DNA of 24,689 bases, taken from positions 3,218 through 27,906 of IMG/VR virus record IMGVR_UViG_3300011992_000034; one strand, written 5' to 3'. Below the pieces are notes generated by a model that worked only from the letters and a program-made list of their open reading frames with translations, did not search any database and was not told the origin of the DNA. Below, piece by piece: positions 1,479 through 18,265 of the stretch (position 1 is its first letter; every line of letters starts with the position of its first letter). The stretch comes from a virus. The translations under genes and the position numbers were made by a program.

Positions 1479-3536
1479 TCAGAGTGAAGGAGAAAAGGAG
1501 TTCGGAAATTGCTTTCCGTCGAGAGAAAAGGAGATAAGGGACATATAGCCGCCATCCTGAATATTGGTTGCGATGAGTTGCGCGCGGTTCGCTTCTGCAG
1601 GGAAAATGCCAAAGCTCTTGTTCCATCGAGCGATGGGTGTTGTCTGGCCGATATCGGCTTCTCCCACTGACAAAGCGCCAACAGAAAGATTGTCGTAATA
1701 CGTATAATCGGCACCATTGATGACTTTCGTTGAACCCGTTCTGACCCCGCTCTTCTCATTGGCTATAGAGCAAATAATATTGATCTGTGACGCTTGGCTT
1801 GTTTCTCCGGATACTGTCGCTTTGCCCATCATCGCATTGCCAACATTGAAATTGCATGTAGCGATGGTTACGGGAATAGCCGAGAGATTATCGGAGAACG
1901 ATGTGAAGAAGCTGTACACGCTATCCGTGGTCGCATCTGTTCCGTAGAGGACGCCATTGCGCTCAAAGAGTCCTGTGACAGGAGCGATCAATTGCGGCGG
2001 CTGCCAACTGCCCCAAAGGTAGGAACGACGAATCTTGCGTAAAATCTTGTGATCATAAATCATCCAATACCATTGTCCTTGCACTTTGATCTGATAGATC
2101 GTCTGCGCTTGGCCGCGATAGTTGAACGCGAGAGAGCCCGTTTGGTCATCATCCATATTCTTGAGGAACTCGATGATTTCCATGTCGTAGTGTTCATCCG
2201 AGAACGACACGGCAGCTCCCGAATTCGTGGCGATACTCTGACGGATGATACGTTTGTCTTTGGTGATATAGGACATTTGTCCGTCTCCGATAGCCACGGC
2301 GCTGTCTTCATTCACACAACCATGATTCGGATCTTTTTCGATAGGGATCGTGAGGCCGATCGTTCCAACTGCAGCGTCCGTTTGGACGGCAGAAGAGTCG
2401 GCAGAGTAGGTCTTATCTTCCAGAAAGAACCACAAGTTATCCGTCACACCGAGTATATTCGCGACCTTCCCGCCGCTCCCCACTGCGATCTTGGTCGAGC
2501 CACCGGTCCCGTAGGTTAAGTTGATAATATTTTCAATATCCGTTGCGGCTCCGTCTATGAACTGCCCAGCCAATACAGAGTTGTTTGGTTGATCGACGTT
2601 CAAAGTAGAAGGGAAGCCCATCAAGTGCATGCGTGATTTCCAGAACACGATCTTGGAAGCTTTCTCGATACCGACCGTAGCGGAAATGTCATGAACGAGA
2701 ATCGCAATCGCGTTATCGGCATAACTGGCACTCACGGTCGTCGTCATGCGGACAACGCCATTGACGTTGACTGTGACTGTTCCTCCTGAAGTCCATGCAT
2801 TCGTGAACACACTCGCTGCCTTCGTGATCACATTCGTTTGTAAGTCGAAGTGCGTTGAATCAATGACGGTGATTGTCCAAGTTCCATTCGCTTCCGTGGT
2901 CCCCGTGACTGAATCGAGCGTGACAGACATCCCCGTCACAAGCGTCGTTGCTAAGGTGGTGATCTGAATCAGTCCTCCATGGCTTGCCGTCCCCGTCACG
3001 GTATACGTTGTCGGCTGCGTAAACGATTCATTCACGCCATTGATCCGTATATTGCCAGAATTGAGACCGAAGACGGAAATGCGAGAGGCAAAATCTGAGT
3101 CAACCGTGATAGAGCTTGCTCCAGCCGAGATCGCTCCATTCACCCGCCCGCAAACAATTCGCCGGGGTCCATCGGTCGTATTGGTGAGATAGACATCCCC
3201 GTTGAATTCTGCGAATCGAGTAACCGTTCCAGTCGTGAGGACCAGACCCGTGTCGTAGGTGACTCCTCCGGCAAAATCACGATAGAACAACTTAGTACCC
3301 AGAGCGAAGAAGGCGATGTCATAGGTTTTGTGGTAAAAACACGTCGCAGGAGAGCCCGTGACGCCGATACTGAACTCTAATTGATAGCCCATGCGTGAGA
3401 CAGCCTTGCCATCCTTGGTGACGAGACAATTCATCGAAGGAACTGCCAAATACGTCGGGTCTATAAGATCAGGATCTGAGCGGTAGCCCTGGAATTGAGA
3501 AGTCGAAATTGGCATCCGAGCGAATGAATCAGCCAT
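1479..3536 (-). CDS. Tail hub / P22 gp10-like tail stabilisation protein with FCCH-type insert
   Basis: 685 aa. The order connector - this protein - fibre, its size and its beta-rich composition fit the tail-accessory proteins that plug short-tailed phages (P22 gp10-like or T7 gp12-like). The first 40 residues (FQGYRSDPDLIDPTYLAVPSMN) resemble the start of such proteins. Residues about 183-235 carry the pattern H-G-L-I, LVTGMSVTLDSVTGTTEANG-W-T-V, DSTHFDLQ, which is the signature of the E1 FCCH-type domain often inserted in phage tail proteins. Residues 330-520 have the repeating short beta motifs expected of a propeller-like body. The start at 3536 follows a CCCCC leader. It was probably adjacent to the connector gene before the HNH gene at 3571-4149 was inserted. 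Confidence 0.7.
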   Translation of the reverse strand: MADSFARMPISTSQFQGYRSDPDLIDPTYLAVPSMNCLVTKDGKAVSRMGYQLEFSIGVTGSPATCFYHKTYDIAFFALGTKLFYRDFAGGVTYDTGLVLTTGTVTRFAEFNGDVYLTNTTDGPRRIVCGRVNGAISAGASSITVDSDFASRISVFGLNSGNIRINGVNESFTQPTTYTVTGTASHGGLIQITTLATTLVTGMSVTLDSVTGTTEANGTWTITVIDSTHFDLQTNVITKAASVFTNAWTSGGTVTVNVNGVVRMTTTVSASYADNAIAILVHDISATVGIEKASKIVFWKSRMHLMGFPSTLNVDQPNNSVLAGQFIDGAATDIENIINLTYGTGGSTKIAVGSGGKVANILGVTDNLWFFLEDKTYSADSSAVQTDAAVGTIGLTIPIEKDPNHGCVNEDSAVAIGDGQMSYITKDKRIIRQSIATNSGAAVSFSDEHYDMEIIEFLKNMDDDQTGSLAFNYRGQAQTIYQIKVQGQWYWMIYDHKILRKIRRSYLWGSWQPPQLIAPVTGLFERNGVLYGTDATTDSVYSFFTSFSDNLSAIPVTIATCNFNVGNAMMGKATVSGETSQASQINIICSIANEKSGVRTGSTKVINGADYTYYDNLSVGALSVGEADIGQTTPIARWNKSFGIFPAEANRAQLIATNIQDGGYMSLISFSLDGKQFPNSFSPSL

Positions 3537-3545
3537 TGCAATGTA

Positions 3546-3550
3546 GGGGG
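3546..3550 (-). promoter_or_regulatory. C-tract leader before the tail hub gene
   Basis: On the minus strand a run of five C lies 9 nt before the ATG at 3536, and there is no AGGAGG-like sequence in the preceding 20 nt. One of the recurring C-rich putative initiation elements of this phage. Confidence 0.4.
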
Positions 3551-3568
3551 TAACCTATAAAATCAATG

Positions 3569-4160
3569 GTATGATAATTCAATGTAGTACTTGCCAGCAG
3601 AGTCTTGAAAAACCCCCTAGCAGAATCAAAAGAGCAAAGATTCATTATTGCTCTGTTAAATGTAGAAGCATTGGAGATATCGGTAGGAAGAGAGCACCTG
3701 CTTCTGCAGAGCGCAAAAGAAAAATCGGAGAAGCTAACTTCAAAGGGGAAATCAAACCATGTCCTATTTGCAAGAAACCAATTAAAATCGCTCAAGGAAA
3801 ATTGAACTGTAGAAGATTTTGTTCCATGCTTTGCTATCAACTTTCTATTAGAAGAAAACATGATGCTGGAGAATATGTACGAAATTTTCTTCCAAATCAT
3901 CCTTCCAGTTGCAAGAACGGACTTGTGCGCGAACACAGAAGAATAGCAGAAGAAATCATTGGACGACCTCTTACAAAAGAAGAGATAATTCATCACATTA
4001 ATGAGATACGAAACGATAACCGCCCAGAAAACTTGTACTTGTTTAAGCACAGAAGAGATCACACGGCGTATCACATGAAAGTACAAAGAGATCAATGCAA
4101 GCCCATTACAAAAAGCAATCTTGCAAGTCTTGCCAAAGTTGTAAAATAAGTTTATCATAC
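3569..4160. repeat. 9-bp inverted repeat bracketing the HNH gene
   Basis: GTATGATAA at 3569-3577 and its exact reverse complement TTATCATAC at 4152-4160 flank the plus-strand HNH gene. The left arm overlaps the start codon of the nuclease and the right arm ends at the first base of the connector stop codon. It may mark the ends of an inserted nuclease cassette or act as a hairpin, but 9 bp can also match by chance in AT-rich DNA. Confidence 0.35.
3571..4149 (+). CDS. HNH homing-type endonuclease with N-terminal Zn-ribbons
   Basis: 192 aa, plus strand, inside an otherwise leftward structural operon. Two Cys clusters are visible: CSTC...CSVKC at residues about 5-31 and CPIC...CSMLC at about 64-88, both Zn-ribbon-like. 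The HNH core follows at about 119-160: VREHRRIAEEIIGRPLTKEEIIHHINEIRNDNRPENL, with the paired HH, the D-N-R-P-E-N-L segment and the trailing H-R-R-D-H typical of the HNH_3-type phage nucleases. The gene is visibly more AT-rich than the neighbouring capsid and tail genes and faces the opposite way, which points to independent acquisition. It likely cuts phage-like DNA lacking the insertion and so spreads itself. Confidence 0.9.
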   Translation: MIIQCSTCQQSLEKPPSRIKRAKIHYCSVKCRSIGDIGRKRAPASAERKRKIGEANFKGEIKPCPICKKPIKIAQGKLNCRRFCSMLCYQLSIRRKHDAGEYVRNFLPNHPSSCKNGLVREHRRIAEEIIGRPLTKEEIIHHINEIRNDNRPENLYLFKHRRDHTAYHMKVQRDQCKPITKSNLASLAKVVK

Positions 4161-5047
4161 TATAAAGCGTTCTCCCTTAACGCGAGTTCGTAATTTTCAT
4201 GATCGAAACGCTGGAACTTGCGTACACGCACCATTTTTCCCGTGTTCCTATCTTTCAGGAGTTCCAAGCGCAGCGTATCGGCATTGTCTTTCGCTTGTTT
4301 GATGATGTCGTAATCCCCACGTCCGAAAAGGGCATACTGAATGCTTCTCCAGACGTAAAAATCGAGCCAATCATCGGGAGCACTCACTAAATCCGTCGTC
4401 AGAAGAATGGAATTGCTGCTCTTATCAAACAAAACAGATGCAGAGCCGGACGCACTCGAAGAACCACGATAGAGCCAAAGGTACTTGGTCGTGCCATCGT
4501 CAATATACGAGAAGTATCCGAACTTCGGCGGGAAATCCATGTAGCGAAGCGTCTCACCGTTGAGCTGTACGCCGTCCCCGTAATCTTCGGATGGTCGGAA
4601 GTTCCCGAAGTTTGACGGCAGAGGATACAAAGCCTGTATGGCCGTATCGTCGGGATGGGTAAACCCTATTTGCGTAACGCCCGTGAAGCTCGTAGCCGTG
4701 AGACCAGTGTAATAGAACTGATCCGGCATGTCCGTATCCCAAAAGACAGCAGCTCCCGCAGTGGGAAAGCCTGCCGTGGAGTCTACCATGATCGTGACAT
4801 CGGTTGTGAGCACTCCGGCGGCATTGTTCACCGCTGCATCGGCAGCAAGTGTGTAGCCAGTCTCCAGTCCTCTCTCTACAGGCGTGCTGCCACCGCCACG
4901 GCGATAGGCTCGCAAGACTTCTTTGTCCGTCTGCGAGACGGCCTGGATCATGAATGCATCACTGATGGCTGGTAGATCACTGCCGCTGTCCTCACGCATC
5001 AAGCCTCGTGCCCTGTCGACGATGGTGCCGCAGCTCGGATGAGACAT
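4160..5047 (-). CDS. Head-tail connector / adaptor protein
   Basis: 295 aa. Residues 1-50 (IVDRARGLMREDSGSDLPAISDAFMIQAVSQTDKEVLRAYRR) and the C-terminal 70 residues are helical, with a beta-rich insert between (about 65-215), the arrangement of connector proteins that bind below the portal in short-tailed phages (P22 gp4-like or T7 gp11-like by position). The C-terminal helix (SIQYALFGRGDYDIIKQAKDNADTLRLELLKDRN) fits that role. It starts 14 nt after the preceding 108-aa gene, behind a CCCCCC leader. Assignment rests on gene order and helical ends rather than on a diagnostic motif. Confidence 0.6.
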   Translation of the reverse strand: MSHPSCGTIVDRARGLMREDSGSDLPAISDAFMIQAVSQTDKEVLRAYRRGGGSTPVERGLETGYTLAADAAVNNAAGVLTTDVTIMVDSTAGFPTAGAAVFWDTDMPDQFYYTGLTATSFTGVTQIGFTHPDDTAIQALYPLPSNFGNFRPSEDYGDGVQLNGETLRYMDFPPKFGYFSYIDDGTTKYLWLYRGSSSASGSASVLFDKSSNSILLTTDLVSAPDDWLDFYVWRSIQYALFGRGDYDIIKQAKDNADTLRLELLKDRNTGKMVRVRKFQRFDHENYELALRENAL

Positions 5048-5054
5048 GTTTCAT

Positions 5055-5060
5055 GGGGGG
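5055..5060 (-). promoter_or_regulatory. CCCCCC leader before the connector gene
   Basis: Six C on the minus strand, 7 nt before the ATG at 5047, in the short gap after the preceding stop codon. No purine-rich Shine-Dalgarno sequence is present. Confidence 0.4.
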
Positions 5061-5061: not shown

Positions 5062-5388
5062 TCAGGCCAAATCAAAACTGATGGCAGAAGCAGCACCAAC
5101 CGCTCCGCTCGCAGTCGTCGTCGTTGCGTAACAAAGACCGAGCGGGAAATCCGGCGGGTTGGGGAACGTAAAGAATGGAGCGACACTCGCTTCCACCTTT
5201 ATAACCTTATCAGGTACCGTTGAACCGATAGTGACATCAGCAGCATTTTGAGCGTTGAATAACTGAAGATACAGGATTGCTGCCGTCCCGTTCTGCACTT
5301 GCAGACTGCAAAGCCTGGTGACTCCTTTGCTTGCAAGGAGAACCGTTCCTGCAACGGTGGGTGCCCAGAGTGTTCGTGAAGAAATCAT
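5062..5388 (-). CDS. Small beta-rich virion-associated protein of unknown function
   Basis: 108 aa starting MISSRTLWAPTVAGTVLLASKG. Composition is rich in Ala, Val and Thr with a predicted beta character and few charges, which fits a small structural, decoration or fibre-base protein. It lies between the capsid and connector genes, 10 nt after the stop of the 5399-5725 gene. The start at 5388 is chosen over a longer frame because ATG is preceded by AACCCC and because the longer N-terminus would lie inside the upstream gene with an implausible basic sequence. No family recognised. Confidence 0.7.
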   Translation of the reverse strand: MISSRTLWAPTVAGTVLLASKGVTRLCSLQVQNGTAAILYLQLFNAQNAADVTIGSTVPDKVIKVEASVAPFFTFPNPPDFPLGLCYATTTTASGAVGAASAISFDLA

Positions 5389-5394: not shown

Positions 5395-5400
5395 GGGGTT
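5395..5400 (-). promoter_or_regulatory. AACCCC leader before the 5062-5388 gene
   Basis: On the minus strand AACCCC overlaps the TAA stop of the upstream gene and is followed by TTTTCT and the ATG at 5388. It supports this start over the longer open frame. Confidence 0.35.
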
Positions 5401-5725
5401 AAAGAACTTTCTTCGGTCTGCCGACTTTCTTGGGAGCATCAATGGATTCCTCCTCTTGATCTTCTGGCTTCTCCTCCACCGTCTCAGCGGGAGGGCCATA
5501 GCCAAGCTTCTGAGCCAGCTCCTTGTCTTCCAAGTCTGGAATGAATTCCTGCAACTCCTTTTCCAAACCAGGTTTGGCAAGCATGGGGATATAGTGCTTG
5601 AGATACTGCTGATAGGTTCCCTCGTCTTTCGTGAAACGAAGATACTTCACGATCTCTTTCAAGTTCGTCTCGGCATTGAGAATGCCCATCTGACGGAATA
5701 GCTTCTCGTGATCGGGACCATCCAT
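5399..5725 (-). CDS. Small charged protein with AT-hook-like C-terminus
   Basis: 108 aa starting MDGPDHEKLFRQMGILNAETN. The first 75 residues are helical and charged; residues about 76-95 are very acidic (EEKPEDQEEES) and the end is KKVGRPKKVL, whose GRP core flanked by lysines resembles an AT-hook. The start at 5725 (ATG) is chosen because TTTCCCCC precedes it by about 10 nt; an in-frame TTG at 5746 is the alternative. Position between capsid and connector genes suggests head completion or DNA packaging, but no family is recognised. Confidence 0.7.
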   Translation of the reverse strand: MDGPDHEKLFRQMGILNAETNLKEIVKYLRFTKDEGTYQQYLKHYIPMLAKPGLEKELQEFIPDLEDKELAQKLGYGPPAETVEEKPEDQEEESIDAPKKVGRPKKVL

Positions 5726-5734: not shown

Positions 5735-5742
5735 GGGGGAAA
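5735..5742 (-). promoter_or_regulatory. TTTCCCCC leader before the 5399-5725 gene
   Basis: Minus-strand TTTCCCCC followed by ACACTTCAT and the ATG at 5725. It is the element that favours the ATG over the upstream TTG. Confidence 0.4.
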
Positions 5743-5782: not shown

Positions 5783-6430
5783 CTAGTACGTAGGAACGAA
5801 ATCGTAGAACAGTTTGCAATCGACACCCGTTGTCTTGGGGATGACGGTGCTCGTCTGTACCATAAACTTCTCATTGGGAGGGACCACTCGTCCGCCTGTA
5901 CCCGAATAGAGAATGATTCCACCCGTACCAATCGTGTTATTCACGCTGAACTTCGGAAGCTGAAGCGTGAAGATCGAGGAACCGACAAGCTTTGGTGCAT
6001 TCGCTGTCCATGCCTTCAGATATCCACCACTGAGAGCAGCGATACTCAGCTGCGTCTTGGCGCATTCCAAAGAGATGGAACGATACGAACCAGTTGCTGT
6101 CTGTTGGATAGAACAGGTGTTGTAATATCCTGAAACACCATTCGTTCCACCTGTCGATGTACAGGGATTGTAGAACTTCTGGTCACGTTCCACGCCGTCC
6201 ACGTAGAGAACAGAACCTGACTGATAACCATTGGTGAGATAATTATATCCAGTGGCTTTGTGCTGCACGAGAGGAGTCGTACCGACGTACTCAGTATTCG
6301 TATTGTTCGTATTATCCCAGAATTGATTTCCTTGGATAATTTGCGATCCTGCGATCCACGCCGTCGAATTGGTAATCGTCGACGTGAGAATCGTCAGAAG
6401 CCCCAACGCAAGAGATGTAAAGAAAGTCAT
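5783..6430 (-). CDS. Signal-peptide or signal-anchor protein downstream of the capsid gene
   Basis: 215 aa. Residues 2-20 (TFFTSLALGLLTILTSTIT) are a hydrophobic N-terminal segment that reads as a Sec signal peptide or signal anchor. The mature part is rich in Asn, Thr, Gly and Tyr with Cys at about 89, 103, 119 and 200 and no obvious enzyme motif, so it looks like a beta-rich extracellular or virion-surface domain. An exported protein between the major capsid gene and the connector genes is unusual. It starts 14 nt after the capsid stop behind TTCCCCCC. It may be a virion surface protein whose hydrophobic N-terminus is an anchor, or a host-surface protein expressed late. No family recognised. 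Confidence 0.75.
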   Translation of the reverse strand: MTFFTSLALGLLTILTSTITNSTAWIAGSQIIQGNQFWDNTNNTNTEYVGTTPLVQHKATGYNYLTNGYQSGSVLYVDGVERDQKFYNPCTSTGGTNGVSGYYNTCSIQQTATGSYRSISLECAKTQLSIAALSGGYLKAWTANAPKLVGSSIFTLQLPKFSVNNTIGTGGIILYSGTGGRVVPPNEKFMVQTSTVIPKTTGVDCKLFYDFVPTY

Positions 6431-6436: not shown

Positions 6437-6444
6437 GGGGGGAA
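6437..6444 (-). promoter_or_regulatory. TTCCCCCC leader before the 5783-6430 gene
   Basis: Minus-strand TTCCCCCC fills the gap between the capsid stop codon and ACTTAA-ATG. A clear example of the C-rich element in place of a Shine-Dalgarno sequence. Confidence 0.45.
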
Positions 6445-7488
6445 TCAAGATAGGGTCGGCTTGGTGATGCTCAAGGAGAACATCGAGCCCTGCGGTTGGA
6501 CAATCGCGTACGCAGCGAACTGTGTGACCAATATTTTGGCCAGCACGTTGTCCGAGTCCGTGAACTTCTGCTCCGGTGTCGGATCTTCGGCCATCATGAG
6601 CTGCCATGCACGCTGACACATATCAGAATCGAGGACTGCCCAGCGATACATATTGGTTGTTGCAGCGTTTGTGACGACTGCGCCAGTGGGGCTACGATCA
6701 CCGAAGTTGAGAGCAATGACTTTGAGTGAACCTGCGCCGCCGTAATAGTTCACGGCGTTGTTGCCTGATTCGGGCGTGAGAGCGGAGCCGAACATCTGAT
6801 GCGCTTTGACGATCATGTTCTGCTCGTTTGCAATCACGACGAGGTTTGGCTGCGGAGCGATATACGTTCCGAAGTCATCCGGTGTATTCTGGACCATTGC
6901 CGTGATGGCGTTCGTGACGTTGCCAATCGAGAACACGGGTCCGAGGCCGCCTGCCTGCGTGGCGTTACTCAGCATGTTGCTGAACGTGATGCCGCCGTAG
7001 ACGTGGGACGTGGAACACAGAGCCTGAGCATCGGATGTGGCGATATTGTAGGCCGCTGACTGCGACAAAGGCGTGAAGGTCGTCTGATCCACTTCTGCGA
7101 AACCTTGCATCGTCATTTCCAGATCAAGCGAGTTCATGAGACGATTCACGAGAGACGTCGCATCAAACTTTGCATTTGCGTAGCGATCATTGAACTTCAT
7201 CATGCGGCGTGTGATTTCCAACTTGTCTCCGAACTGGAGCTGTGTCTTGGAAAGCTCATTGCCTTTCGTCGGGTTCACGACCGTGTAGTTATCGTTTTCA
7301 ACGACACGGGGAGCGAAGCCGGAGAGCGCAACCGAGTTGAAGGTGACTTTTTCACTGTCACCAGGCTGCCAAGGAACGGAACGGAAGAGCGAACGTACCA
7401 TGTTCGGCTTTGCATCTTTGATTTGTTCAATGACGGTACGCTCGACGTTATCCACGAATTCATTGAACGCTAATGTGTTATATGCCAT
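6445..7488 (-). CDS. Major capsid protein (HK97-fold type)
   Basis: 347 aa, starting MAYNTLAFNEFVDNVERTVIEQI. The N-terminal helix region, the VPWQPGDSEKVTFNSV segment, the middle NVTNAITAMVQNTPDDFGTYIAPQPNLVVIANEQN segment and the late GSLKVIALNFGDRSPTGAV...NMYRWAVLDSDMCQRAW are characteristic of P22/HK97-fold capsid proteins with a separate scaffold. Size fits the family. Order is scaffold, decoration-like protein, then this gene, as usual. The ATG is immediately preceded by TTTTTTTCCCC, with no Shine-Dalgarno sequence even though this should be the most strongly translated gene of the phage. Confidence 0.88.
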   Translation of the reverse strand: MAYNTLAFNEFVDNVERTVIEQIKDAKPNMVRSLFRSVPWQPGDSEKVTFNSVALSGFAPRVVENDNYTVVNPTKGNELSKTQLQFGDKLEITRRMMKFNDRYANAKFDATSLVNRLMNSLDLEMTMQGFAEVDQTTFTPLSQSAAYNIATSDAQALCSTSHVYGGITFSNMLSNATQAGGLGPVFSIGNVTNAITAMVQNTPDDFGTYIAPQPNLVVIANEQNMIVKAHQMFGSALTPESGNNAVNYYGGAGSLKVIALNFGDRSPTGAVVTNAATTNMYRWAVLDSDMCQRAWQLMMAEDPTPEQKFTDSDNVLAKILVTQFAAYAIVQPQGSMFSLSITKPTLS

Positions 7489-7520
7489 GGGGAAAAAAAG
7501 AAGAGATTACGAAGTAAAAA

Positions 7521-7952
7521 TTACGCAACACCAACGACATGCCTGCTAAGGCCGCCTTGGTTGAAGACTACGTACGCAGCGGAGGTTGTAACGCCATCCC
7601 AACCAGCGATAGTGAAATCATGAGTAGTGTCCGTACCGACATCGACTGTCAAACCACCGGCAAGCATATCGCACGTCGCACCGATCTTGTTCGCTGCCAT
7701 GGTTCCAGTGATACCCGTGACTTTCCAAATAGAACCGTCATCAATGATATCGGCATTGCCGACCGTGCTCAGGGCCTGAGCGTTCACCGAGACGCCGATA
7801 GTCTGCTTATTTGCCGCTCCGACTGCGACGTTGCCGCCTTCGTCGAACTGAAGCGAAGCCCCAGCGACAAGAGCAACAGCAGTGTTCGGGAATTGCATAT
7901 AACGACTCTTGCCCGTCATGCGGGAAAAGAGATTGCACAAACGATTTTCCAT
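7521..7952 (-). CDS. Head decoration-like small beta protein
   Basis: 143 aa between scaffold and major capsid genes. It is Gly/Ala/Val/Thr-rich with short alternating hydrophobic strands (TAVALVAGASLQFDEGGNVAVGAANKQTIGVSVNAQ), a composition typical of small capsid-stabilising or decoration proteins, and it sits exactly where those genes usually lie. There is no signal peptide and no catalytic motif. The start at 7952 follows TTCCCC by 9 nt. The role is inferred from position and composition. Confidence 0.68.
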   Translation of the reverse strand: MENRLCNLFSRMTGKSRYMQFPNTAVALVAGASLQFDEGGNVAVGAANKQTIGVSVNAQALSTVGNADIIDDGSIWKVTGITGTMAANKIGATCDMLAGGLTVDVGTDTTHDFTIAGWDGVTTSAAYVVFNQGGLSRHVVGVA

Positions 7953-7961: not shown

Positions 7962-7967
7962 GGGGAA
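7962..7967 (-). promoter_or_regulatory. TTCCCC leader before the decoration-like gene
   Basis: Minus-strand TTCCCC followed by TTACAAATC and the ATG at 7952, in the 18-nt gap after the scaffold stop codon. Confidence 0.45.
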
Positions 7968-7970: not shown

Positions 7971-8558
7971 TTATAGTTGGCCCCTACTTTTTTTCAGTTC
8001 CTTCTGACGTAACCAGCTTTCTTTGGAGTATCCCCATTTCTTTGCTTCTTCAGGATTGAAACCTTCATATTGGTTATCCTCAAGAATGCGGGTACCCATT
8101 GCCGTGCCGGAAGCCATAGATTGCTGACGTTCCAGACGTGCCTTATCTGGATTCGATTGAAAGCGCAGTTTGGCGGTATTGAGGGCATAATCCCTTGGGA
8201 TACCGTTCTCCACATCTTTCAAGAACACATCGTCGCCGTAGAGTTCAACGTCCTTGGCGTTCTTGAGTTCCCAAACCTGCTCCCTCAGTTCTGCTTTCGA
8301 AACGGTTTGCGGTTCTTCGGCAGGTGTCACTATCGCTTCTTCGCCTGCGAGAACTTTCAACCGAGCGACTTCCGCTTGCAGTTCTTTCTTGGAGAGGTTC
8401 GTCTTATCCATGTCTTGATGAGCTGCGTTGTATTTCTTCTTCAGTTCCTGGAAGTGCGGATTACTCTCAAGCTGTTCGAGAGTCATACCTTCGGGAGCAG
8501 AAGCGTTGACGTTTGCATCAGTGGGGCTTTCGCCGTTGACGCCATCGTTAGTGGGCAT
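7971..8558 (-). CDS. Capsid scaffolding protein
   Basis: 195 aa starting MPTNDGVNGESPTDANVNASAPEG. Residues 1-25 are disordered and acidic, residues about 26-75 form a strong charged coiled-coil (LEQLESNPHFQELKKKYNAAHQDMDKTNLSKKELQAEVARLKV), and the C-terminus is a short basic helix (KESWLRQKELKKSRGQL) like the capsid-binding tail of phage scaffolds. It precedes the decoration-like and capsid genes. The start at 8558 is preferred over the longer open frame (8621), because TTCCTCCC lies 10 nt before it and the extra 21 residues look non-coding. Confidence 0.82.
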   Translation of the reverse strand: MPTNDGVNGESPTDANVNASAPEGMTLEQLESNPHFQELKKKYNAAHQDMDKTNLSKKELQAEVARLKVLAGEEAIVTPAEEPQTVSKAELREQVWELKNAKDVELYGDDVFLKDVENGIPRDYALNTAKLRFQSNPDKARLERQQSMASGTAMGTRILEDNQYEGFNPEEAKKWGYSKESWLRQKELKKSRGQL

Positions 8559-8731
8559 TGAAGAAATTGGGAGGAATAGCCAGATGGCTCTGTGATATGT
8601 GCAGTAGTGTGGAAAGCACACATCACGCAGCCATCGGCTTGGATAGTCAGCGGTGCTGAAAAAGAGCGAGGACTGCCCCGATATATACGCTGAATTCGAT
8701 ATTTTGATGAGCGTGTGATAGCTCTCCCGTG
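8559..8731. other. Intergenic region upstream of the scaffold gene
   Basis: 173 nt with no convincing gene, the largest gap within the virion genes. It holds a small inverted repeat (GTGTG, 5-nt loop, CACAC at 8607-8621) and an AT-rich stretch near 8680-8705. It could carry a promoter for the capsid genes or an RNA structure, but I see no clear -35/-10 pair. TTCCTCCC at 8569-8576 is the C-rich leader of the scaffold gene. Confidence 0.4.
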
Positions 8732-9001: not shown

Positions 9002-9290
9002 CCTTGAGTGCATCAGGAATGTAGTCAGACGGTTTTTTCATTTGTGTCTTACTCTCCCCATCAGATTTGTTTTTCTCTGAAAATGTATCACGCATCAATT
9101 GATTACGAATACGCAGAGACGCCATACGGTCAACATCCCTATTGAGAATGTAGGAAAGCTGTGTGAGCCTCTTATAGAGCCCCTGGCGTTGACGCTTGGA
9201 GAGCGTTTGCAGGGCTTCCAGATCCTCCACTTGCGGCATCATCGTTTCCTGCGTTTGGTAAAGGAGCCATCTGTTGAGGAGCTTGAGCAT
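8994..9290 (-). CDS. Small helical protein overlapping the portal gene end
   Basis: Up to 98 aa, highly charged and helical (MMPQVEDLEALQTLSKRQRQGLYKRLTQLSYILNRDVDRMASLRIRNQLM). Its first 119 nt lie in another frame inside the 3' end of the portal gene. The start at 9290 has CCCCCTCCTA directly before it, matching the C-rich leader pattern, but that stretch also encodes prolines of the portal; in-frame ATGs at 9242 and 9239 are alternatives. The portion after the portal stop (9171-8994) is clearly open and unclaimed by any other frame. Function unknown. Confidence 0.55.
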   Translation of the reverse strand: MLKLLNRWLLYQTQETMMPQVEDLEALQTLSKRQRQGLYKRLTQLSYILNRDVDRMASLRIRNQLMRDTFSEKNKSDGESKTQMKKPSDYIPDALKDE

Positions 9291-11409
9291 TAGGAGGGGG
9301 AGAAGAAGATTGCTGCTGCGGTGGATTCTTTGCTTGGTCTTTCATCTTTTGGACCAAGTTTTGCACGTTCGTGAGCGTCTCGGAGCCGCCTGTACTCGCG
9401 TTCATGATGAGTTTTGGATCAATCTCTGCGAAGTCCAACATGACGGAAACCATCTTGTCAAAATCAGCGCCTTTGTAGCCAAGCTGAATGAGCTGCAAAA
9501 TAAAGTTGATAGTTGTTTGCACGTTCTTCACTTCTTGATTCTTCACGTCGGCCAGCATTCTCTTGGAATCAACAATACAAGTGGGGAGACTGCTGGAATC
9601 AATACCATCGGAAGGATAGACGTAGGCGGCAGTCAGAGGGACATAGGATGTTTCTACTTTCATCTTCGAATCATGGACGAGTGTGTTCGACGTTCTGCCT
9701 TTAGAATCATACGTAGGATTGTAGTCAAGTTGGCGTTTCTTGGAGACAGTGAAGTCTTCTCGAATCTTCTCTCCTTTCATCGGAATATACCGCATGAATT
9801 TCTTTTGAGGCTTGTCCGTATTCAAATCTTTGTAGTCATCCACTGGTTTCTTCTTTGCTTTGATATCTGCTTTCGCCTGGCTGACCTGATCGTCTGTCAT
9901 CTCTTCATAATCGTCATCGGTCAATGTCGTCAGAGCGTTTGCAAGCAAGAGGGAGCCGACGGGCGTGAACACTTCATGCTCCAAGCGTGTTAAGCGTTGC
10001 TCAGCTCCACGATTGCTTTGCCGGATACGGAGTGCAAACTCTCCAAGAGTCTTGGAACTGTCCCCGATCATCTGCTGCGGATTGATTCCGGTCGCTGGAA
10101 CGACAAACTTATCCATCTGATCCATCGTCTCGGCATAATCTGTTACTTTTGCAATCCCCAGAGACATCGGCGTGATCTCTCCATCAATGAGTTCTCCACC
10201 ATAGAGCCTGTTTGCGTCGACATCGAGATACGAATCGGCATTGGAGCCTTTATAGTTGAGCACGGAAGAACCGGACCAGCGGGAATTGTCGAGGAATTGA
10301 TTAAAGAGTCCTTGGATAGCCGTGTCTTCGCCTTCGATACGCTCCGGCAGACCCATGCCGTATGCGGAGTGCGTGCCTTGGTAGTTCTTATCATACTTAT
10401 CAAACATGATGCCCCAGCGCAGCGAACACATGCCCGGGATATTGAGCCCTGTCGAACGCTCTACAACCTTGTTCACTACCTTTTCATAGATCTTCAGAGG
10501 CTTATCCAGCACACAAATACCCATCGAGCTGATCAAGGGGGGAGGATAGAGCGCCATGCCGTCTGACTGGTTGCCAAATGTTTTGATATAGATGCGATAG
10601 AGGTCTCTGATTCCGTCTTGGTAGTAATAGATCGCAGCGTGGGAACCTTTCGCCAGTTTGTCCATGTTCTTGTAGCGCGGCGTCCCATCATCTTTCTTTG
10701 CTCGCCCGAACCCTTGCGCCATCTGATTCCATGTGATGATGCGACGACGCAGACAAGAGGGTACGTCATTGGTGCTGTCAATATTGGGGTTACGCCAACA
10801 GTTCATCGGGTTTACGGCGCGCACACCTACCTTGGGCCTGCGGTGATCCTGGACGATGATCGGTTCGTAGCCGCCTGGATAGGCTTCATTGGGGAGCCGC
10901 AGCGTTCGCTGCGGGTAATCTATAAAGACTTCGAAGACACCACAGCCCATCACAAAGAAATCTCGAAAGAACGTCTCTTGGTGTAACTTATACTGACAAT
11001 CCGAGAGAATCATTCTGATCATGTGCTTCCAGGTGATCACTTTCATGTGATCGCTCGGTTTGTTTGGTTCGAAATCAAAATCAGGTTCACCCTCTGTCAT
11101 TTGGTTAATGCCTTGATCTATTTGTGTACGCGCATACCCGAGAAAGATACGCGAAATCTCATCATCCGGTCGCATGGTCTGCAAACAGTTGTACACCTTC
11201 ATTCCTCGTCTCGCCTTCAAATCCCATCCGGAGTTACGGCGGTACTCGTCCATGTAGCGAATATCCTGCCAATCTTCATCACGATATTGCGCTTCCAAGC
11301 CCTGTGGTTCTTCTCCCGTCAAACGCTCATTCTCTCCTATCTGATGCAGAAAAGGGAACAGATTGGATCGCTTCGCTGCGAGGGAATCAGGTGTTTCAGT
11401 TGAAAGCAT
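9172..11409 (-). CDS. Portal protein (P22-like, long form)
   Basis: 745 aa, the usual length of the large podovirus-type portals. The N-terminal third contains DIRYMDEYRRNSGWDLKARRG and RIFLGYARTQIDQGINQMTEGEPDFDFEP, then FFRDFFVMGCGVFEVFIDY and the PMNCWRNPNIDSTNDVPSCLRRR segment typical of portals that list their residual substrates. The middle (GEDTAIQGLFNQFLDNSRWSG, QQMIGDSSKTLGEFALRIRQSNRGAEQRLTRLEHEVFTPV) matches the stem and wing region, and the last 80 residues are a Gln/Pro/Ser-rich low-complexity tail. It would form the dodecameric ring through which TerL packages DNA. ATCCCC lies 5 nt before the start at 11409. Confidence 0.85.
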   Translation of the reverse strand: MLSTETPDSLAAKRSNLFPFLHQIGENERLTGEEPQGLEAQYRDEDWQDIRYMDEYRRNSGWDLKARRGMKVYNCLQTMRPDDEISRIFLGYARTQIDQGINQMTEGEPDFDFEPNKPSDHMKVITWKHMIRMILSDCQYKLHQETFFRDFFVMGCGVFEVFIDYPQRTLRLPNEAYPGGYEPIIVQDHRRPKVGVRAVNPMNCWRNPNIDSTNDVPSCLRRRIITWNQMAQGFGRAKKDDGTPRYKNMDKLAKGSHAAIYYYQDGIRDLYRIYIKTFGNQSDGMALYPPPLISSMGICVLDKPLKIYEKVVNKVVERSTGLNIPGMCSLRWGIMFDKYDKNYQGTHSAYGMGLPERIEGEDTAIQGLFNQFLDNSRWSGSSVLNYKGSNADSYLDVDANRLYGGELIDGEITPMSLGIAKVTDYAETMDQMDKFVVPATGINPQQMIGDSSKTLGEFALRIRQSNRGAEQRLTRLEHEVFTPVGSLLLANALTTLTDDDYEEMTDDQVSQAKADIKAKKKPVDDYKDLNTDKPQKKFMRYIPMKGEKIREDFTVSKKRQLDYNPTYDSKGRTSNTLVHDSKMKVETSYVPLTAAYVYPSDGIDSSSLPTCIVDSKRMLADVKNQEVKNVQTTINFILQLIQLGYKGADFDKMVSVMLDFAEIDPKLIMNASTGGSETLTNVQNLVQKMKDQAKNPPQQQSSSPPPNAQAPQQMAPLPNAGNDDAASGGSGSPANALQASTPGAL

Positions 11410-11414: not shown

Positions 11415-11420
11415 GGGGAT
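11415..11420 (-). promoter_or_regulatory. ATCCCC leader before the portal gene
   Basis: Minus-strand ATCCCC followed by GCACT and the ATG at 11409; no Shine-Dalgarno sequence. Confidence 0.4.
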
Positions 11421-11463: not shown

Positions 11464-11619
11464 CTAGTACTTCGATTTCTTCATCTTGAGCATTTTGACA
11501 GGCTTCACTGCTGCTGTTTTCTTCACGGCAGGAGCTTTTGCCTTCGGAATGCCAAGCTTCTGCTTAGCCTGAAATGTTTTGAGTCCGGCGCGTGCTTGCG
11601 CAATGGTTCTTTTAGCCAT
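11464..11619 (-). CDS. Tiny lysine-rich protein
   Basis: 51 aa: it starts MAKRTIAQARAGLKTFQAKQ and ends KMLKMKKSKY, with about a third Lys or Arg, many Ala and Pro, and no acidic residues. It resembles small nucleic-acid-binding or DNA-condensing basic peptides. It sits between the portal gene (54 nt downstream) and another 51-aa gene (14 nt upstream). The leader TTCTCTTTCTTTCT before the ATG is pure pyrimidine. It could be a virion DNA-associated peptide; no family recognised. Confidence 0.65.
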   Translation of the reverse strand: MAKRTIAQARAGLKTFQAKQKLGIPKAKAPAVKKTAAVKPVKMLKMKKSKY

Positions 11620-11633
11620 AGAAAGAAAGAGAA

Positions 11634-11789
11634 CTAATTAGAATCGTTATCAGTCGTGTTGCCGCCGAACTTCGACGGTGTGGGCTTCGGAGAGATATCA
11701 ACTTTGGGCTGTGCAACCTTGCCCATCGCTGCACGCTTGCGGGGGGACATTTGATCGTCCGGTACGTTTTGGAGAGGATAATTCGACAT
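11634..11789 (-). CDS. Small hydrophilic protein of unknown function
   Basis: 51 aa, starting MSNYPLQNVPDDQMSPRKRA and ending FGGNTTDNDSN. It is disordered-looking, with Pro, Lys and Asp/Asn. This frame is preferred over the longer overlapping frame (11612-11908), which is an Arg/Ser-rich shadow, because it has an ATG preceded by TTTCCCC at 9 nt and sits in tight order with the flanking small genes. Function unknown. Confidence 0.6.
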   Translation of the reverse strand: MSNYPLQNVPDDQMSPRKRAAMGKVAQPKVDISPKPTPSKFGGNTTDNDSN

Positions 11790-11797: not shown

Positions 11798-11804
11798 GGG
11801 GAAA
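11798..11804 (-). promoter_or_regulatory. TTTCCCC leader before the 51-aa gene
   Basis: Minus-strand TTTCCCC followed by ACTACCTC and the ATG at 11789. It helps choose this small frame over the longer shadow ORF. Confidence 0.4.
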
Positions 11805-12719: not shown

Positions 12720-13982
12720 TCATGACTGCCCTCCATAAATCGAGCGAGTTTTCCTTGCTTCTGTCTTCTTCTTTGTCACTCGAAAGGCCATAGCCATCGC
12801 ACGTAATGCATCCGGTCCGTCTGAGAAGTCATGATGCGGCTCTTCTCCATACGTTTTGCCTGTAATCGGATCAACCTTGTAGTGATAGTGAGCGAGTGAG
12901 AACAACAAATCAGCCCCTTTCTCCTTATCAATCCGCAGGAACGGGAAAATGTTTCTGACCGCTTCTATGCCATCTCTGACCGCTCCAGGGTACGTTTCAT
13001 TCACATGCACCTTAGAGTTTGGAAAAGACTTCTCCACTTGTGTTTTCGTGTTGAATTCCGCATCAGCTCTATCATGGTTCGCATCATGCGGCAGAACGTG
13101 TAAATCATAGGTATACGTCTTTTGATGCAGCAGCTCCAAGTAGTAGGGAATCTTTTTATGCTTGTCTTGGATGTAATCCACAATCCAATGCTCCAGACCT
13201 ACCTTCTGTTTGATGATGATCGTCATGTAATCGCCTTCACCAATATCCCAGTACGTTGAACAGGGCTTACTTGCATCGTAGGGCACATCGCCTATTCTTC
13301 CTTCATCTTGGGCCTTCTGTAGTTCTTCTGCATAGATTGCGCCTTCGACTGCTTGTCTCGGCTCGCCGAGCCAAACATTTCTGTAGGCGATAGGATCACG
13401 TTCGAGAAGGTCTAGACGCTCTTTCTCTAAAACTGCAGGAAAGAACGGATTGTCATCGTAGTTCACTTTTACCACGATAGAATCTTTCGGAGGATTCAGA
13501 ACGAAACGAACATACGCCGGATCAGTCGGCAAAATGGGATTCATCGTGATGATGATCTCGGAATCTTCCGCTCTGATTGTCGGCAGGAGAACATTGATGG
13601 AATTCTCCGAGATTGTTTGTCCCTCTTCAATCCATGCCCGCTTGATGTCATACATACTCTTGATACTCGCAACGTTATTCTTGAGACCTGCAAAGACGAA
13701 TTTGGTCAGGTTCCTTCCTACGATCTCCGCCTCTTTGACCGTATAGAAATCCTCCAGTTCCATCTCAACGATCATCGCGGCAAGAAGACTATGAACAGAT
13801 TGCTTAATGGATACCATGTATTCTCTGCAACAGAGTATATTTTGCGTTTCAGCCATTCCCTCACCAAGGAGCCATCTTGCGACTGTTTCGCTTTTTCCTC
13901 CTCCTCTGCCGCCGTAGAAACACTTGATACGATGCTTCTCAAATAAGCCTTCAAACGCCGCAGGGATGGGAACTTCCTTCAT
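12720..13982 (-). CDS. Terminase large subunit (TerL)
   Basis: 420 aa, normal for the PBSX/T7-like TerL group. The ATPase part shows Walker A GGRGGGKS at residues 24-31, Walker B with catalytic glutamates in RAWIEEGQ (119-120) and the coupling-type motif IIITMNP (144-149). The RNase-H-like nuclease part shows D246 in WDIGEGD, a second acidic cluster in LPHDANHD (about 298-304) and HHDFSDGPDAL (383-393). It packages DNA through the portal at 9172-11409. Its start overlaps the TerS stop as ATGA. Confidence 0.95.
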   Translation of the reverse strand: MKEVPIPAAFEGLFEKHRIKCFYGGRGGGKSETVARWLLGEGMAETQNILCCREYMVSIKQSVHSLLAAMIVEMELEDFYTVKEAEIVGRNLTKFVFAGLKNNVASIKSMYDIKRAWIEEGQTISENSINVLLPTIRAEDSEIIITMNPILPTDPAYVRFVLNPPKDSIVVKVNYDDNPFFPAVLEKERLDLLERDPIAYRNVWLGEPRQAVEGAIYAEELQKAQDEGRIGDVPYDASKPCSTYWDIGEGDYMTIIIKQKVGLEHWIVDYIQDKHKKIPYYLELLHQKTYTYDLHVLPHDANHDRADAEFNTKTQVEKSFPNSKVHVNETYPGAVRDGIEAVRNIFPFLRIDKEKGADLLFSLAHYHYKVDPITGKTYGEEPHHDFSDGPDALRAMAMAFRVTKKKTEARKTRSIYGGQS

Positions 13983-14284
13983 ACTTCTTTTTCTTTGGGC
14001 TTTGTCAGAATGTAATGCACATTGTGATTGAAAGGATTTTTTTCACTCCCCAGCTCTCCGTCGGAACTCTTCGGCTTCCCGTCTATTCGATCAAAAGCAT
14101 CTTTGAGTATTTCCGGCTTTCCCTCTTTAAGGTGCTTGAGATAAGCATCAATCGCTTTTGTTGCCACCATCTCTTTTTCTCCTTCAGGAATGGAACGCAA
14201 ACGATCTTTGAGAAGTTCAACAAGAGAAAACGCTCCTACCGGCCTTCCTTTCAAATTGCCGCTTTGCCCTTTCTTAAATACCAT
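13979..14284 (-). CDS. Small terminase-like protein (DUF5681-type, probable TerS)
   Basis: 101 aa starting MVFKKGQSGNLKGRPVGAFSLVELLKDRL. The FKKGQSGN-KGRP opening is the hallmark of a small phage protein family (DUF5681) regularly encoded just before TerL, and it probably recognises the packaging site. The middle is helical (LVELLKDRLRSIPEGEKEMVATKAIDAYLKHLKEGKPEIL). It is translationally coupled to TerL by ATGA. The ATG lacks both a Shine-Dalgarno sequence and a C tract (AAAATTTATTC precedes it). Confidence 0.8.
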   Translation of the reverse strand: MVFKKGQSGNLKGRPVGAFSLVELLKDRLRSIPEGEKEMVATKAIDAYLKHLKEGKPEILKDAFDRIDGKPKSSDGELGSEKNPFNHNVHYILTKPKEKEV

Positions 14285-14501: not shown

Positions 14502-14842
14502 ATCTTGAACGGATAGAAATTTTTCAATGGGTCATCAATAGGTTTGAGAGCCATTCCCGTATCTGAACTGCTCCATGCGTTCAGTTTCTGCATCATTAAA
14601 GTATTCGCCATCGGTTCTCTGCGTAGATATTCTTCACTTGGATATCCTCCAACATGTTTCAAAAACAGCAAGCAGTTGCGGAACTTCTGATTGATCTCCT
14701 CCATCTTCTTTGGATTCAAATCTTCTGTGTTCACGAGTTGTTCGAAGAGAATGCCATTGCCTCTGATTTGAAATCTAGTCTGTTTGCCAAAAATCTCTCT
14801 CTTCTGGCCCTCGATCTTCAGCACGAGTCGCTGCACGATCAA
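14498..14842 (-). CDS. Protein of unknown function
   Basis: 114 aa, charged, predicted mixed alpha/beta (KKMEEINQKFRNCLLFLKHVGGYPSEEYLRREPMANTLMMQKLNAWS). No ATG exists at the 5' end: the best start is TTG at 14842, which overlaps the upstream stop as TTGA; GTG at 14836 is the alternative. The start type differs from the neighbours but the coupling pattern is the same. It is coupled to the FmdB-like gene downstream. No family recognised. Confidence 0.6.
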   Translation of the reverse strand: MIVQRLVLKIEGQKREIFGKQTRFQIRGNGILFEQLVNTEDLNPKKMEEINQKFRNCLLFLKHVGGYPSEEYLRREPMANTLMMQKLNAWSSSDTGMALKPIDDPLKNFYPFKI

Positions 14843-15075
14843 TTGGAAAGATGTATGGACGATTTCTTTCTCTTCACAGAAGAATGCGAAGAGCTTGAGA
14901 GACTGGAAGAGCCGGCAGTACCATAATAATTCGTCTTATACGTGGATGAGCTTCGCATGACAGGTGTAAAGCCGTGATTGATTTGAATATTATCCGTCGG
15001 CGTGCGCCAGGTTGCAACGGTAGCGATAAGACCGATAAGGAAGGTGAAACCTATGATGTAGTGGCTTATTTTCAT
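14839..15075 (-). CDS. Single-pass membrane protein with Ser-rich basic tail
   Basis: 78 aa. Residues 6-23 (YIIGFTFLIGLIATVATW) form one transmembrane segment close to the N-terminus, followed by a hydrophilic domain ending in a run of Ser and a basic KRKKSS stretch. Coupled to both neighbours by 4-nt overlaps (ATGA upstream, TTGA downstream). One short TM plus a charged tail is compatible with a lysis accessory (spanin- or holin-like) or an anchor protein, but nothing is diagnostic. Confidence 0.6.
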   Translation of the reverse strand: MKISHYIIGFTFLIGLIATVATWRTPTDNIQINHGFTPVMRSSSTYKTNYYGTAGSSSLSSSSHSSVKRKKSSIHLSN

Positions 15076-15764: not shown

Positions 15765-15765
15765 A

Positions 15766-16729: not shown

Positions 16730-16774
16730 AGGGATATATCTTATCCCAGAATGAGAGGAGATTCAAGACAATAA

Positions 16775-17176: not shown

Positions 17177-17177
17177 A

Positions 17178-17273
17178 TCAAAAGGGAAACACCATTTTCC
17201 AAGCCATAACGTTCAACAAGAGCCCGATAGCAAGAACCGAGAGATACGCGAGGAAAAGAGCACGATCAATCAT
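17178..17273 (-). CDS. 31-residue single-TM peptide
   Basis: 31 aa, MIDRALFLAYLSVLAIGLLLNVMAWKMVFPF, nearly all one hydrophobic helix. Its ATG overlaps the 3' end of the Ser-rich gene by 8 nt, and its stop is 1 nt from the TTG of the metallopeptidase gene. Short single-TM peptides in this setting may be pinholin-like or lysis-regulating, but the sequence alone cannot show this. Confidence 0.45.
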   Translation of the reverse strand: MIDRALFLAYLSVLAIGLLLNVMAWKMVFPF

Positions 17274-17811
17274 GGTGAAAGGCGGTGATTGTCCCAGAAG
17301 AGGGACCAATAACTTGTAGCGAAACAGATTGTGAAGACGATGAAGATGAACTTGGGATAGAGGACTGACTCGAATCCTCCGAGGAAGATGAAACAGCAAA
17401 AGAGGAAGATCCCTGCGAAGTAGAGGACGTAGCCGATGAGGAGCTGGAGGAGACGGATGAACTATCGGAAGAAGAAGCTACAGAGGACGTTGACGATGAG
17501 GAGGAGAGCGAAGAAATCGCAGACGAGGACGCCGGTAGGGCCGATGAATCGGAGGAGACGCTTGATAGAGAAGAGGAATTACTTATAGCGCTGGAAGTCT
17601 CGGAGCTCCTTGAGGATGGCTTGCTGCTGACGCCTGCGCTTGCGTCGCTCGAAGAATAGGAGGAGGAAATCTGCAACGAGGTAGCCGAGAAGTCCTGCGA
17701 CGAAGAGGATGGACCAATAGCTGATACAGAAGATCGGGAAGAGGCGAAGACTTGTTGAAGACAAAGAACGCTGAGAAGGATACCACTGGATGCAAGGAGA
17801 ATCTTTTTCAT
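17266..17811 (-). CDS. Serine-rich exported protein
   Basis: 181 aa. Residues 1-23 (MKKILLASSGILLSVLCLQQ then VFA) are a clean signal peptide with a signal-peptidase-I-like A-x-A-type end (VFA before SSR); the LSVLC segment is not a good lipobox. From residue 24 to about 160 the protein is a low-complexity chain of Ser with Ala, Thr, Val and Asp, then SLQVIGPSSGTITAFHHD. It would be a flexible, possibly glycosylated, surface or periplasmic spacer. The start at 17811 is the first ATG in this frame adjacent to the signal peptide. Function unknown. Part of it is overlapped by an open alternative frame (17579-17815). Confidence 0.6.
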   Translation of the reverse strand: MKKILLASSGILLSVLCLQQVFASSRSSVSAIGPSSSSQDFSATSLQISSSYSSSDASAGVSSKPSSRSSETSSAISNSSSLSSVSSDSSALPASSSAISSLSSSSSTSSVASSSDSSSVSSSSSSATSSTSQGSSSFAVSSSSEDSSQSSIPSSSSSSSQSVSLQVIGPSSGTITAFHHD

Positions 17812-17815
17812 GCAA
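17579..17815 (-). CDS. Alternative-frame membrane ORF inside the Ser-rich gene
   Basis: 78 codons in a different frame, covering the signal peptide and first Ser-rich third of the gene above. It encodes SYWSILFVAGLLGYLVADFL then LLFFERRKRRRQQQ and a charged helix ending LKELRDFQRYK, an organised TM followed by a basic stop-transfer anchor. The only start is TTG at 17815, 4 nt before the ATG of the Ser-rich gene. Embedded membrane genes are known from phage spanin pairs (Rz/Rz1), but a frame-shifted Ser-codon tract tends to give Leu and Pro by itself, so this may be a by-product. Confidence 0.25.
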   Translation of the reverse strand: MHEKDSPCIQWYPSQRSLSSTSLRLFPIFCISYWSILFVAGLLGYLVADFLLLFFERRKRRRQQQAILKELRDFQRYK

Positions 17816-17824
17816 GGAGAATTT

Positions 17825-18022
17825 TCATGAGGGACGGGGAACGTAGGTGATCGGGACGGGCAATTGACCAAAGTAATCTTCATCAAGAATCTTATCAGCA
17901 TTCGCTGTTCTTTGTACATCCGGTGATGGCTCCCCTCTTGCCTTGCGCCTATCACCGACGATCCGGCTCCCGCGAAACATTCCCGGCTTATTCGTCCCGA
18001 TGAGGGAGTTACCGTAATGCAT
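17825..18022 (-). CDS. Small basic protein of unknown function
   Basis: 65 aa from the ATG at 18022, MHYGNSLIGTNKPGMFRGSRI then DRRKARGEPSPDVQRTANADKILDEDYFGQLPVPITYVPRPS. The start overlaps the previous gene by 14 nt; GAAAGG 3 nt before it is the closest thing to a Shine-Dalgarno sequence in this block. It is soluble, Arg/Pro-rich, with no recognised motif. Confidence 0.5.
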   Translation of the reverse strand: MHYGNSLIGTNKPGMFRGSRIVGDRRKARGEPSPDVQRTANADKILDEDYFGQLPVPITYVPRPS

Positions 18023-18149
18023 CTGCCTTTCGGAGAATCTCGTAGCTGGGCAACTGGCTGAGGTCCTGAAGCTTCTTCTTTTTCTTCTTCTTGCCCCTGA
18101 GGGGATAGAAACCGTGATCTTCGAGTTCTTCTTCAAATTCGTCTAACAT
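18009..18149 (-). CDS. Small protein with polylysine run, first gene of the leftward block
   Basis: 46 aa: an acidic N-terminus (MLDEFEEELEDHGFYPLRG), seven consecutive Lys (residues 20-26), then LQDLSQLPSYEILRKADALR. It is the first gene leftward of the divergent intergenic region, with TTCCCC about 5 nt before its ATG. The acidic/basic split suggests protein or nucleic-acid binding. No family recognised. Confidence 0.5.
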   Translation of the reverse strand: MLDEFEEELEDHGFYPLRGKKKKKKKLQDLSQLPSYEILRKADALR

Positions 18150-18265
18150 GGGATGGGGAAGTTCTCTTGAGTGTACGCTGCTGTATTTAAAACTCAAGTA
18201 AAAATATATCCTAAACCATTGCAGCCTGAGCCACAAAAGGAGTAGGATACGTTTGTTCACAACGT
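18150..18265. promoter_or_regulatory. Divergent intergenic region
   Basis: 116 nt between the leftward block (first gene 18149) and the rightward block (first gene 18266), so it should carry promoters for at least one direction. It is AT-rich around 18180-18212 (TATTTAAAA, AAAAATATAT). No -35/-10 pair is good enough to name. Confidence 0.4.
18155..18160 (-). promoter_or_regulatory. TTCCCC leader before the polylysine-protein gene
   Basis: Minus-strand TTCCCC then ATCCC and the ATG at 18149. Matches the leader element seen before the capsid-region genes. Confidence 0.4.

Follow-up and report, generated by a model that had tools for sequence, protein, structure and literature searches.

C-rich pyrimidine tracts in the Shine-Dalgarno position of phage genes: a probable translation-initiation signal of a Peribacteria-like Patescibacteria lineage

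What marks the start codons of a phage whose genes are preceded by runs of C in place of Shine-Dalgarno (SD) sequences? The question is raised by a viral DNA stretch of 24,689 nucleotides (the window), bases 3218–27906 of the 27.9 kb record IMGVR_UViG_3300011992_000034, which is the structural and packaging region of a tailed phage. The original prediction had listed 12 starts with such a tract close upstream and had offered three explanations: a host with a different 16S tail, S1-like binding to pyrimidine tracts, or a phage regulator that binds them. From the analysis described here it is probable that a Peribacteria-like host uses the tracts as its initiation signal, that the phage has adopted this signal, and that a protein, most plausibly ribosomal protein bS1, reads it.

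The C-tract observation is real. Direct reading of the sequence confirmed a tract at each of the 12 listed starts. As a control with the same composition we took all 922 ATGs of the window, from either strand, and compared the 20 nt upstream with those of 28 window genes listed by hand. CCCC was found before 9 of the 28 genes and before 40 of the 922 ATGs (4.3%, p = 8e-7); for a run of 7 pyrimidines the counts were 13/28 and 96/922 (10.4%, p = 8e-7). Mechanical calling of open reading frames (ORFs), with starts that were not hand-chosen, gave CCCC before 7 of 23 (p = 2.5e-5). The comparison with a composition-matched control had been named beforehand as a possible refutation, and the enrichment survived it. 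The SD tetramers GGAG, GAGG and AGGA were not above background (2/28 window genes vs 136/922 ATGs, 14.8%), in agreement with the predicted scarcity of SD sequences before starts, including that of the major capsid gene (TTTTTTTCCCC followed directly by ATG).

For 43 of 60 genes of the C-tract phages, the longest C-run has its 3' end 5–10 nt from the ATG; the background distribution is flat. In SD-using phages related through the terminase, the SD sequence ends 5–9 nt from the ATG at its peak; by this spacing, the C-run occupies the SD register. Where operon gaps are 10–18 nt long, the tract often follows the previous stop codon directly, as in TAATTCCCCCC before the next ATG.

Relatives of the phage were retrieved from viral contigs with a capsid query (a portal query there gave no match). 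At 35–88% protein identity they keep the tract before orthologous genes, at 37% and at 63% GC alike, so the predicted persistence among relatives was borne out. Capsid relatives with the feature are G001 (87% identical at the capsid), G003 (76%), G005 (65–68%, GC 63%), G002 (64%, GC 37%) and G006 (65%). Runs of 7 pyrimidines are significant in G001 (p = 2e-7), G003 (p = 3e-6) and G005 (p = 3e-4); G002 and G006 have weaker signals and few genes, too few for a separate test. No capsid relative has SD sequences above background. Of 52 ortholog leaders, 23 contain CCC and 30 contain six consecutive pyrimidines; an SD sequence is present in 3. The clearest case is gene 7971–8558, with TTCCTCCC in the window and TTTCCC, TTACCC, TTTCC, TTTCCCC or TTCCCC in relatives. 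The corresponding leader of MW202647 carries TTTCCCC; the capsid of this phage is merely 24% identical, yet C tracts are common to both. MW202647 (L052, Manatee Spring) is itself a complete public podovirus with C-tract leaders and no host on record, and a candidate Patescibacteria phage. In contrast, 36 terminase relatives (L001–L036, mostly ~40% identity) have SD sequences before 46% of their genes (p = 1e-46) and CCCC before 1%. Leader type thus goes with a single branch of the phages and presumably with the host of that branch.

The host was sought by scanning a genome collection for TTCCCC followed after 1–12 nt by the first codons of S12 (rpsL). Among the 80 loci listed in the scan, 5 start a true S12 gene, and these come from Peribacteraceae, Peregrinibacteria, Gracilibacteria, Uhrbacteria and a Gemmatimonadetes metagenome-assembled genome (MAG). 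Four of the five listed are Patescibacteria, three of them Peregrinibacteria or Gracilibacteria. We then counted TTCCCC N3–11 ATGA per genome against a reversed-pattern control. In the class to which the Peribacteraceae genome belongs, 30 of 145 genomes are significantly enriched after Bonferroni correction, led by G007 (Peribacteraceae; 79 forward, 11 control) and G134 (77/9). For AGGAG N3–11 ATGA the coding background swamps the genome-wide signal. On these grounds the phage quite probably infects a Peribacteria-like Patescibacteria lineage.

Leaders were counted across one cellular genome, G140, a near-complete Peribacteraceae-like genome on a single 1.25 Mb contig that shares 90% S12 identity with the Peribacteraceae locus. 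Of the 174 genes whose ATG start is unambiguous, 18.4% have CCCC at -20..-1 and 2.9% at -80..-61, and ten-pyrimidine runs occur in 13.2% and 1.7%, respectively. AGGAG/GGAGG is depleted (1.1% vs 5.2%); this bears out the expectation, set in advance, that genes of a candidate host would not use AGGAGG. Over-represented pentamers are CTCCC, CCCCT, CCCCC and TCCCT. The third explanation, in which a regulator of translation encoded by the phage binds the tracts, could draw on their concentration in late structural genes. It was rejected and is highly improbable, since the same leaders occur genome-wide in cellular genomes and also in the distant phage MW202647.

A second set of pentamers enriched within 20 nt of the ATG in G140 resembles the -10 box (ATACT, TATAA, CTATA), and leaderless or short-leader mRNAs appear common there. 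The tracts might accordingly be promoter-proximal or leaderless-transcription elements, i.e. pyrimidine start sites, instead of ribosome signals. We regard this as quite unlikely: the phage tracts lie in the 10–18 nt gaps of a long co-oriented structural operon, often straight after a stop codon and at an SD-like spacing, and CCCC in G140 is commonest (27%) in genes with a near upstream neighbour. Taken together, the neighbour-linked CCCC and the -10-like boxes suggest that internal leaders of pyrimidines and mRNAs with a short leader or none probably coexist in G140.

The 16S tails of the candidate lineage are indeed altered, as one of the predicted explanations required. In the most enriched block of genomes the canonical tail GGAUCACCUCC is replaced by GGAACACUUCC, GGAACAUCUCC, GGAACAUUUCC, GGAACUUUUCC or GGAACGCCUCC; tails with AUCUCC or AUUUCC occur there beside GGAACACUUCC, and CCUCC is not intact in this block. 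For the altered-tail block the forward/control ratio has a median of 4.4, against 2.1 where the tail is canonical (p = 0.011). The link between tail decay and C-tract use is real but modest, and the two are not strictly coupled. Through its KH domain, Era recognises GAUCA together with CCUCC, and this protein has been lost in most of the Candidate Phyla Radiation (PMC10582724); this loss may have freed the anti-SD (aSD) sequence to drift. Several enriched genomes (G028, G040, G134, G067, G092, G112 and G088; L225–L252) have 16S genes with long insertions or genes that were matched piecewise. One MAG, G018 (L188, L225), carries two distinct 16S tails, GGATCACCTCC and GGATTACCTCC, and may be a mixed bin.

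Pairing of leaders with these tails was assessed from RNA duplex energies of real and shuffled leaders. SD phages pair clearly with the canonical tail GGAUCACCUCC (t = -7.3). C-tract leaders do not pair with it (t = 0.1) nor with the helix 45 (h45) strand (t = 0.1), show no convincing pairing with the altered tail of G140 (t = -1.8), and pair more poorly than shuffled leaders with GGAUGGAACA (t = +2.2). The claim of a different 16S tail therefore stands for the alteration itself (GGAACACUUCC, GGAACAUCUCC, GGAACAUUUCC). It fails as an account of how the tract is read: the aSD core is lost without a G-rich tail that would pair with C tracts, and pairing with the mature tail does not exceed that of shuffled leaders.

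A variant of RNA pairing places the partner just beyond the usual 16S 3' end. If a 3' extension, UUCCUUACCAGGGAA or UCUCCUUACCAGGGAG, were retained, its GGGAA or GGGAG could pair with TTCCC or CTCCC leaders. In the block with GGAAC tails this precursor sequence co-varies with the tail (GGGAA with UUCC, GGGAG with CUCC), leaders pair slightly better than shuffled ones with the two extensions (t = -2.6 and -2.5), and small counts show a relative preference for CTCCC where the extension is GGGAG and for TTCCC in the one GGGAA genome. This signal is weak against the SD control, however, and the same 3' hairpin is present in canonical genomes, where it is normally trimmed. G003 has pyrimidine leaders yet TTCCC in 0 of 18, and C-runs reach 6, longer than the GGG of the extension. 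Reading of the tract by such an extension is unlikely in our estimate.

The motif is loose, with a C core, a fixed register and a variable length, and is kept over 37–63% GC. Such features point rather to a site recognised by a single-strand-binding protein. In E. coli, bS1 prefers pyrimidines. The protein is present in 47 of 48 genomes by matches to TIGR00717, mostly over model positions ~4–347; all these matches are under the curated cut-off, like those of most control genomes, and that of G067 is via a single domain alone. Putative S1-like binding, as predicted, is the best remaining of the three explanations and fits the data. As the reader of the tract bS1 is a candidate to which we give slightly less than even confidence.

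The leader of rpsA is itself nearly all pyrimidine in the altered-tail block, for instance TTATCCTTCCCCTCGCACCCTTATTCCCCT directly before the ATG in G030. The rpsA leaders of this block (L296–L319) share CTTGCACC or CTCGCACC ~12–20 nt before the ATG, the rest being pyrimidine; this element is possibly a site of S1 autoregulation. A C-terminal bS1 stretch, FVASKTGKKYYPADSAAGKKIKEENRVYFKTEKEAEKAGFSA, is conserved in most GGAAC-tail genomes and resembles an Ada zinc-binding domain without the cysteines (PF02805, E = 0.02–0.06, under the cut-off). The survey of this stretch covered the rpsA loci L294–L319 of G140, G100, G030, G112, G150, G007, G010, G094, G155, G040, G134, G059, G017, G050, G082, G117 and G106; it is absent from the canonical-tail genomes inspected and also from G075 and G128. 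The rpsA matches of G078 and G084 contain 8 and 22 in-frame TGA codons. These class members read TGA as sense, which fits the known code of Gracilibacteria and SR1.

Based on these sequence comparisons we propose the following mechanism. In a Peribacteria-like Patescibacteria lineage (the class of Candidatus (Ca.) Peribacteraceae), whose 16S largely lacks the CCUCC core, the tracts would serve as ribosome-binding, i.e. translation-initiation, signals of phage genes in place of SD sequences. The signal would be a stretch of unstructured pyrimidines, with 3–6 C at its core, that ends 5–10 nt before the AUG. On the 30S platform, a protein that binds pyrimidines (most plausibly bS1) would hold the tract in the mRNA exit channel, with no pairing to 16S. 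That the signal acts in translation is very likely. A passive effect would dispense with a specific reader: selection for unstructured, G-poor starts might favour pyrimidines, which avoid structure and spurious SD sequences. The general depletion of G and A in the leaders and the looseness of the motif agree with this. The sharp 5–10 nt register does not, nor do C-runs conserved even in the 37% GC relative, and a rule for unstructured starts alone would prefer A/T as in Bacteroidetes; we consider a passive origin improbable.

Several observations weigh against a protein-read signal of this lineage. The genomes G028 (59/8) and G038 (41/10) are enriched despite an intact GGAUCACCUCC, about nine Patescibacteria outside the class (identified by eye among 380 genomes drawn from the phylum) also pass the test, and even canonical-tail genomes give a baseline ratio of ~2 against the reversed pattern. 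In G140 the tract is weaker and broader than in the phage, and the -10-like boxes near the ATG point to many first genes with a short leader or none. A tract is also missing from part of the phage genes: several early or coupled genes are without one (e.g. 12720–13982, 13979–14284 and 14839–15075), and in the ortholog comparison relatives of the portal and terminase mostly lack it. The host likewise remains a candidate: a portal profile (A2) revealed no provirus of the phage in 353 class genomes and a capsid profile (A1) none in genome contigs, a blastn-short search against 3.4 Mb of DNA gave no spacer-like matches, and no host is named in the collections of viruses and phages.

Within the window the tract signal peaks in the structural operon. 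The sites given here are on the minus strand unless stated otherwise, with distances counted 5' of the ATG. Gene 1479–3536 has CCCCC at 3546..3550 (9 nt; leader ACCCCCTACATTGCA, abutting the ATG), and gene 4160–5047 has CCCCCC at 5055..5060 (7 nt; leader ATCCCCCCATGAAAC, G001 ortholog TAATCCCCCTTCTGAAG). CCCC at 5395..5398 precedes gene 5062–5388 by 6 nt (leader ACCCCTTTTCT), and TTTCCCCC at 5735..5742 precedes gene 5399–5725 by 9 nt (leader TTTCCCCCACACTTCAT; orthologs TTTCCCCCC in G001 and TTCCCCCC in G005). Upstream of gene 5783–6430, TTCCCCCC is located at 6437..6444 (6 nt; leader ATTCCCCCCACTTAA), with orthologs TTCCCCCC (G001), ACCCC (G002) and ACCC (G003). The polypyrimidine leader TTTTTTTCCCC of the major capsid gene 6445–7488 (weak Phage_capsid_4 match) spans 7489..7499 and abuts the ATG; its orthologs are all polypyrimidine. 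For gene 7521–7952 the tract is TTCCCC at 7962..7967 (9 nt; leader TTCCCCTTACAAATC). The TTCCTCCC of gene 7971–8558 is at 8569..8576 (10 nt; leader TTCCTCCCAATTTCTTCA), with at least CCC in 5 of 6 orthologs and TTTCC in G003. The portal gene 9172–11409 (weak P22_portal match, PHROG head-tail adaptor) has CCCC at 11415..11418 (5 nt; leader ATCCCCGCACT), a tract that is not conserved in relatives. Three tracts precede short ORFs that are less secure as genes: TTCCCC at 11798..11803 (8 nt; leader TTTCCCCACTACCTC) before the uncertain ORF 11612–11789 (58 aa), TTCCCC at 18155..18160 (5 nt; leader TTCCCCATCCC) before ORF 18009–18149 (46 aa), and CCCCCC within CTCTCCCCCCTCCC at 23438..23443 (4 nt; leader TCTCCCCCCTCCC) before ORF 23200–23433 (77 aa). 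On the plus strand, TTCCCC at 19612..19617 lies 9 nt from the ATG of the HNH gene 19627–20007 (leader TTCCCCTTTTGCACA). Finally, gene 24190–24453 has TTCCC at 24464..24468 (10 nt).

The terminase large subunit is encoded at 12720–13982 (PF04466 match). Pfam identifies HNH endonuclease genes at 3571–4149, 18266–18733 and 19627–20007, one of which also matches an AP2 domain; the ORF at 20210–20782 is HNH-like. Within this 25 kb region the HNH genes are likely mobile inserts, and the first (3571–4149) sits antisense between two structural genes. Gene 21291–22328 encodes a trypsin-like protease with a weak TAT-signal match, an unusual cargo for a phage genome, and ORF 17266–17955 contains a long low-complexity stretch rich in serine. 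Searches for tRNA, Rfam and 16S gave no matches in the window or the viral record.

We rate the C-tract signal as a form of SD-independent initiation. It resembles SD/aSD initiation in its place 5–10 nt before the AUG and in having one signal per uncoupled gene, and differs in its opposite base content, in the missing pairing with the 16S tail and in the candidate host block's lack of CCUCC. Leaders of Bacteroidia are A/T-rich. There, too, SD use is lost lineage-wide, with an intact aSD sequestered by bS21, bS18 and bS6; the leaders described here are C/T-rich, not A-rich, and the 16S core is changed, whereas Bacteroidia 16S keeps the anti-SD according to PMC9976891. Pyrimidine tracts in leaders with a weak SD or none are also seen in bS1-dependent E. 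coli genes, including rpsA, and the present system has both the tract upstream of the AUG and a host-encoded bS1 (47/48 genomes). In E. coli, the S1 site is usually farther upstream of the SD region, whereas the tract here lies in the SD register, is C-rich and is found genome-wide. Leaderless transcription shares the -10 boxes near the ATG of the candidate host genome, but the phage tracts are operon-internal, so the mRNA extends upstream of the AUG, which argues against a leaderless start.

The loss of SD sequences and CCUCC in Peribacter is already published: Ca. Peribacter riflensis was tabulated in 2024 as SD-scarce (7% SD) and without CCUCC, in a class with SR1, Wolfebacteria and Campbellbacteria (PMC10783764). 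The candidate host lineage includes this listed member, and the block presumed to hold the host has the altered aSD core and few SD genes of that class. In its accessible text PMC10783764 treats SD/aSD as absent, never uses the words pyrimidine or C-rich and describes no replacement signal; the Peribacteria genome paper PMC4736985 lacks the words Shine and start codon. A C-rich replacement signal was not found described in the literature, in which subscription journals were largely uncovered, and this is not proof of novelty.

Whether this Patescibacteria lineage and its phages have put a C-rich tract read by a protein in the register of the rRNA-read SD sequence, so that a distinct type of bacterial ribosome-binding site evolved beside the decay of the 16S anti-SD core, is for us an evenly balanced proposition. 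SD pairing is the textbook start signal, and lineages without it are usually described by what is missing; the tract would be a positive, conserved replacement common to phages and a cellular lineage. Leader type would help to assign hosts to hostless Patescibacteria phages, and start-site annotation would improve in a large uncultured group. The lineage would also offer a testable case in which protein-guided replaces rRNA-guided start selection, together with changes in the rRNA.

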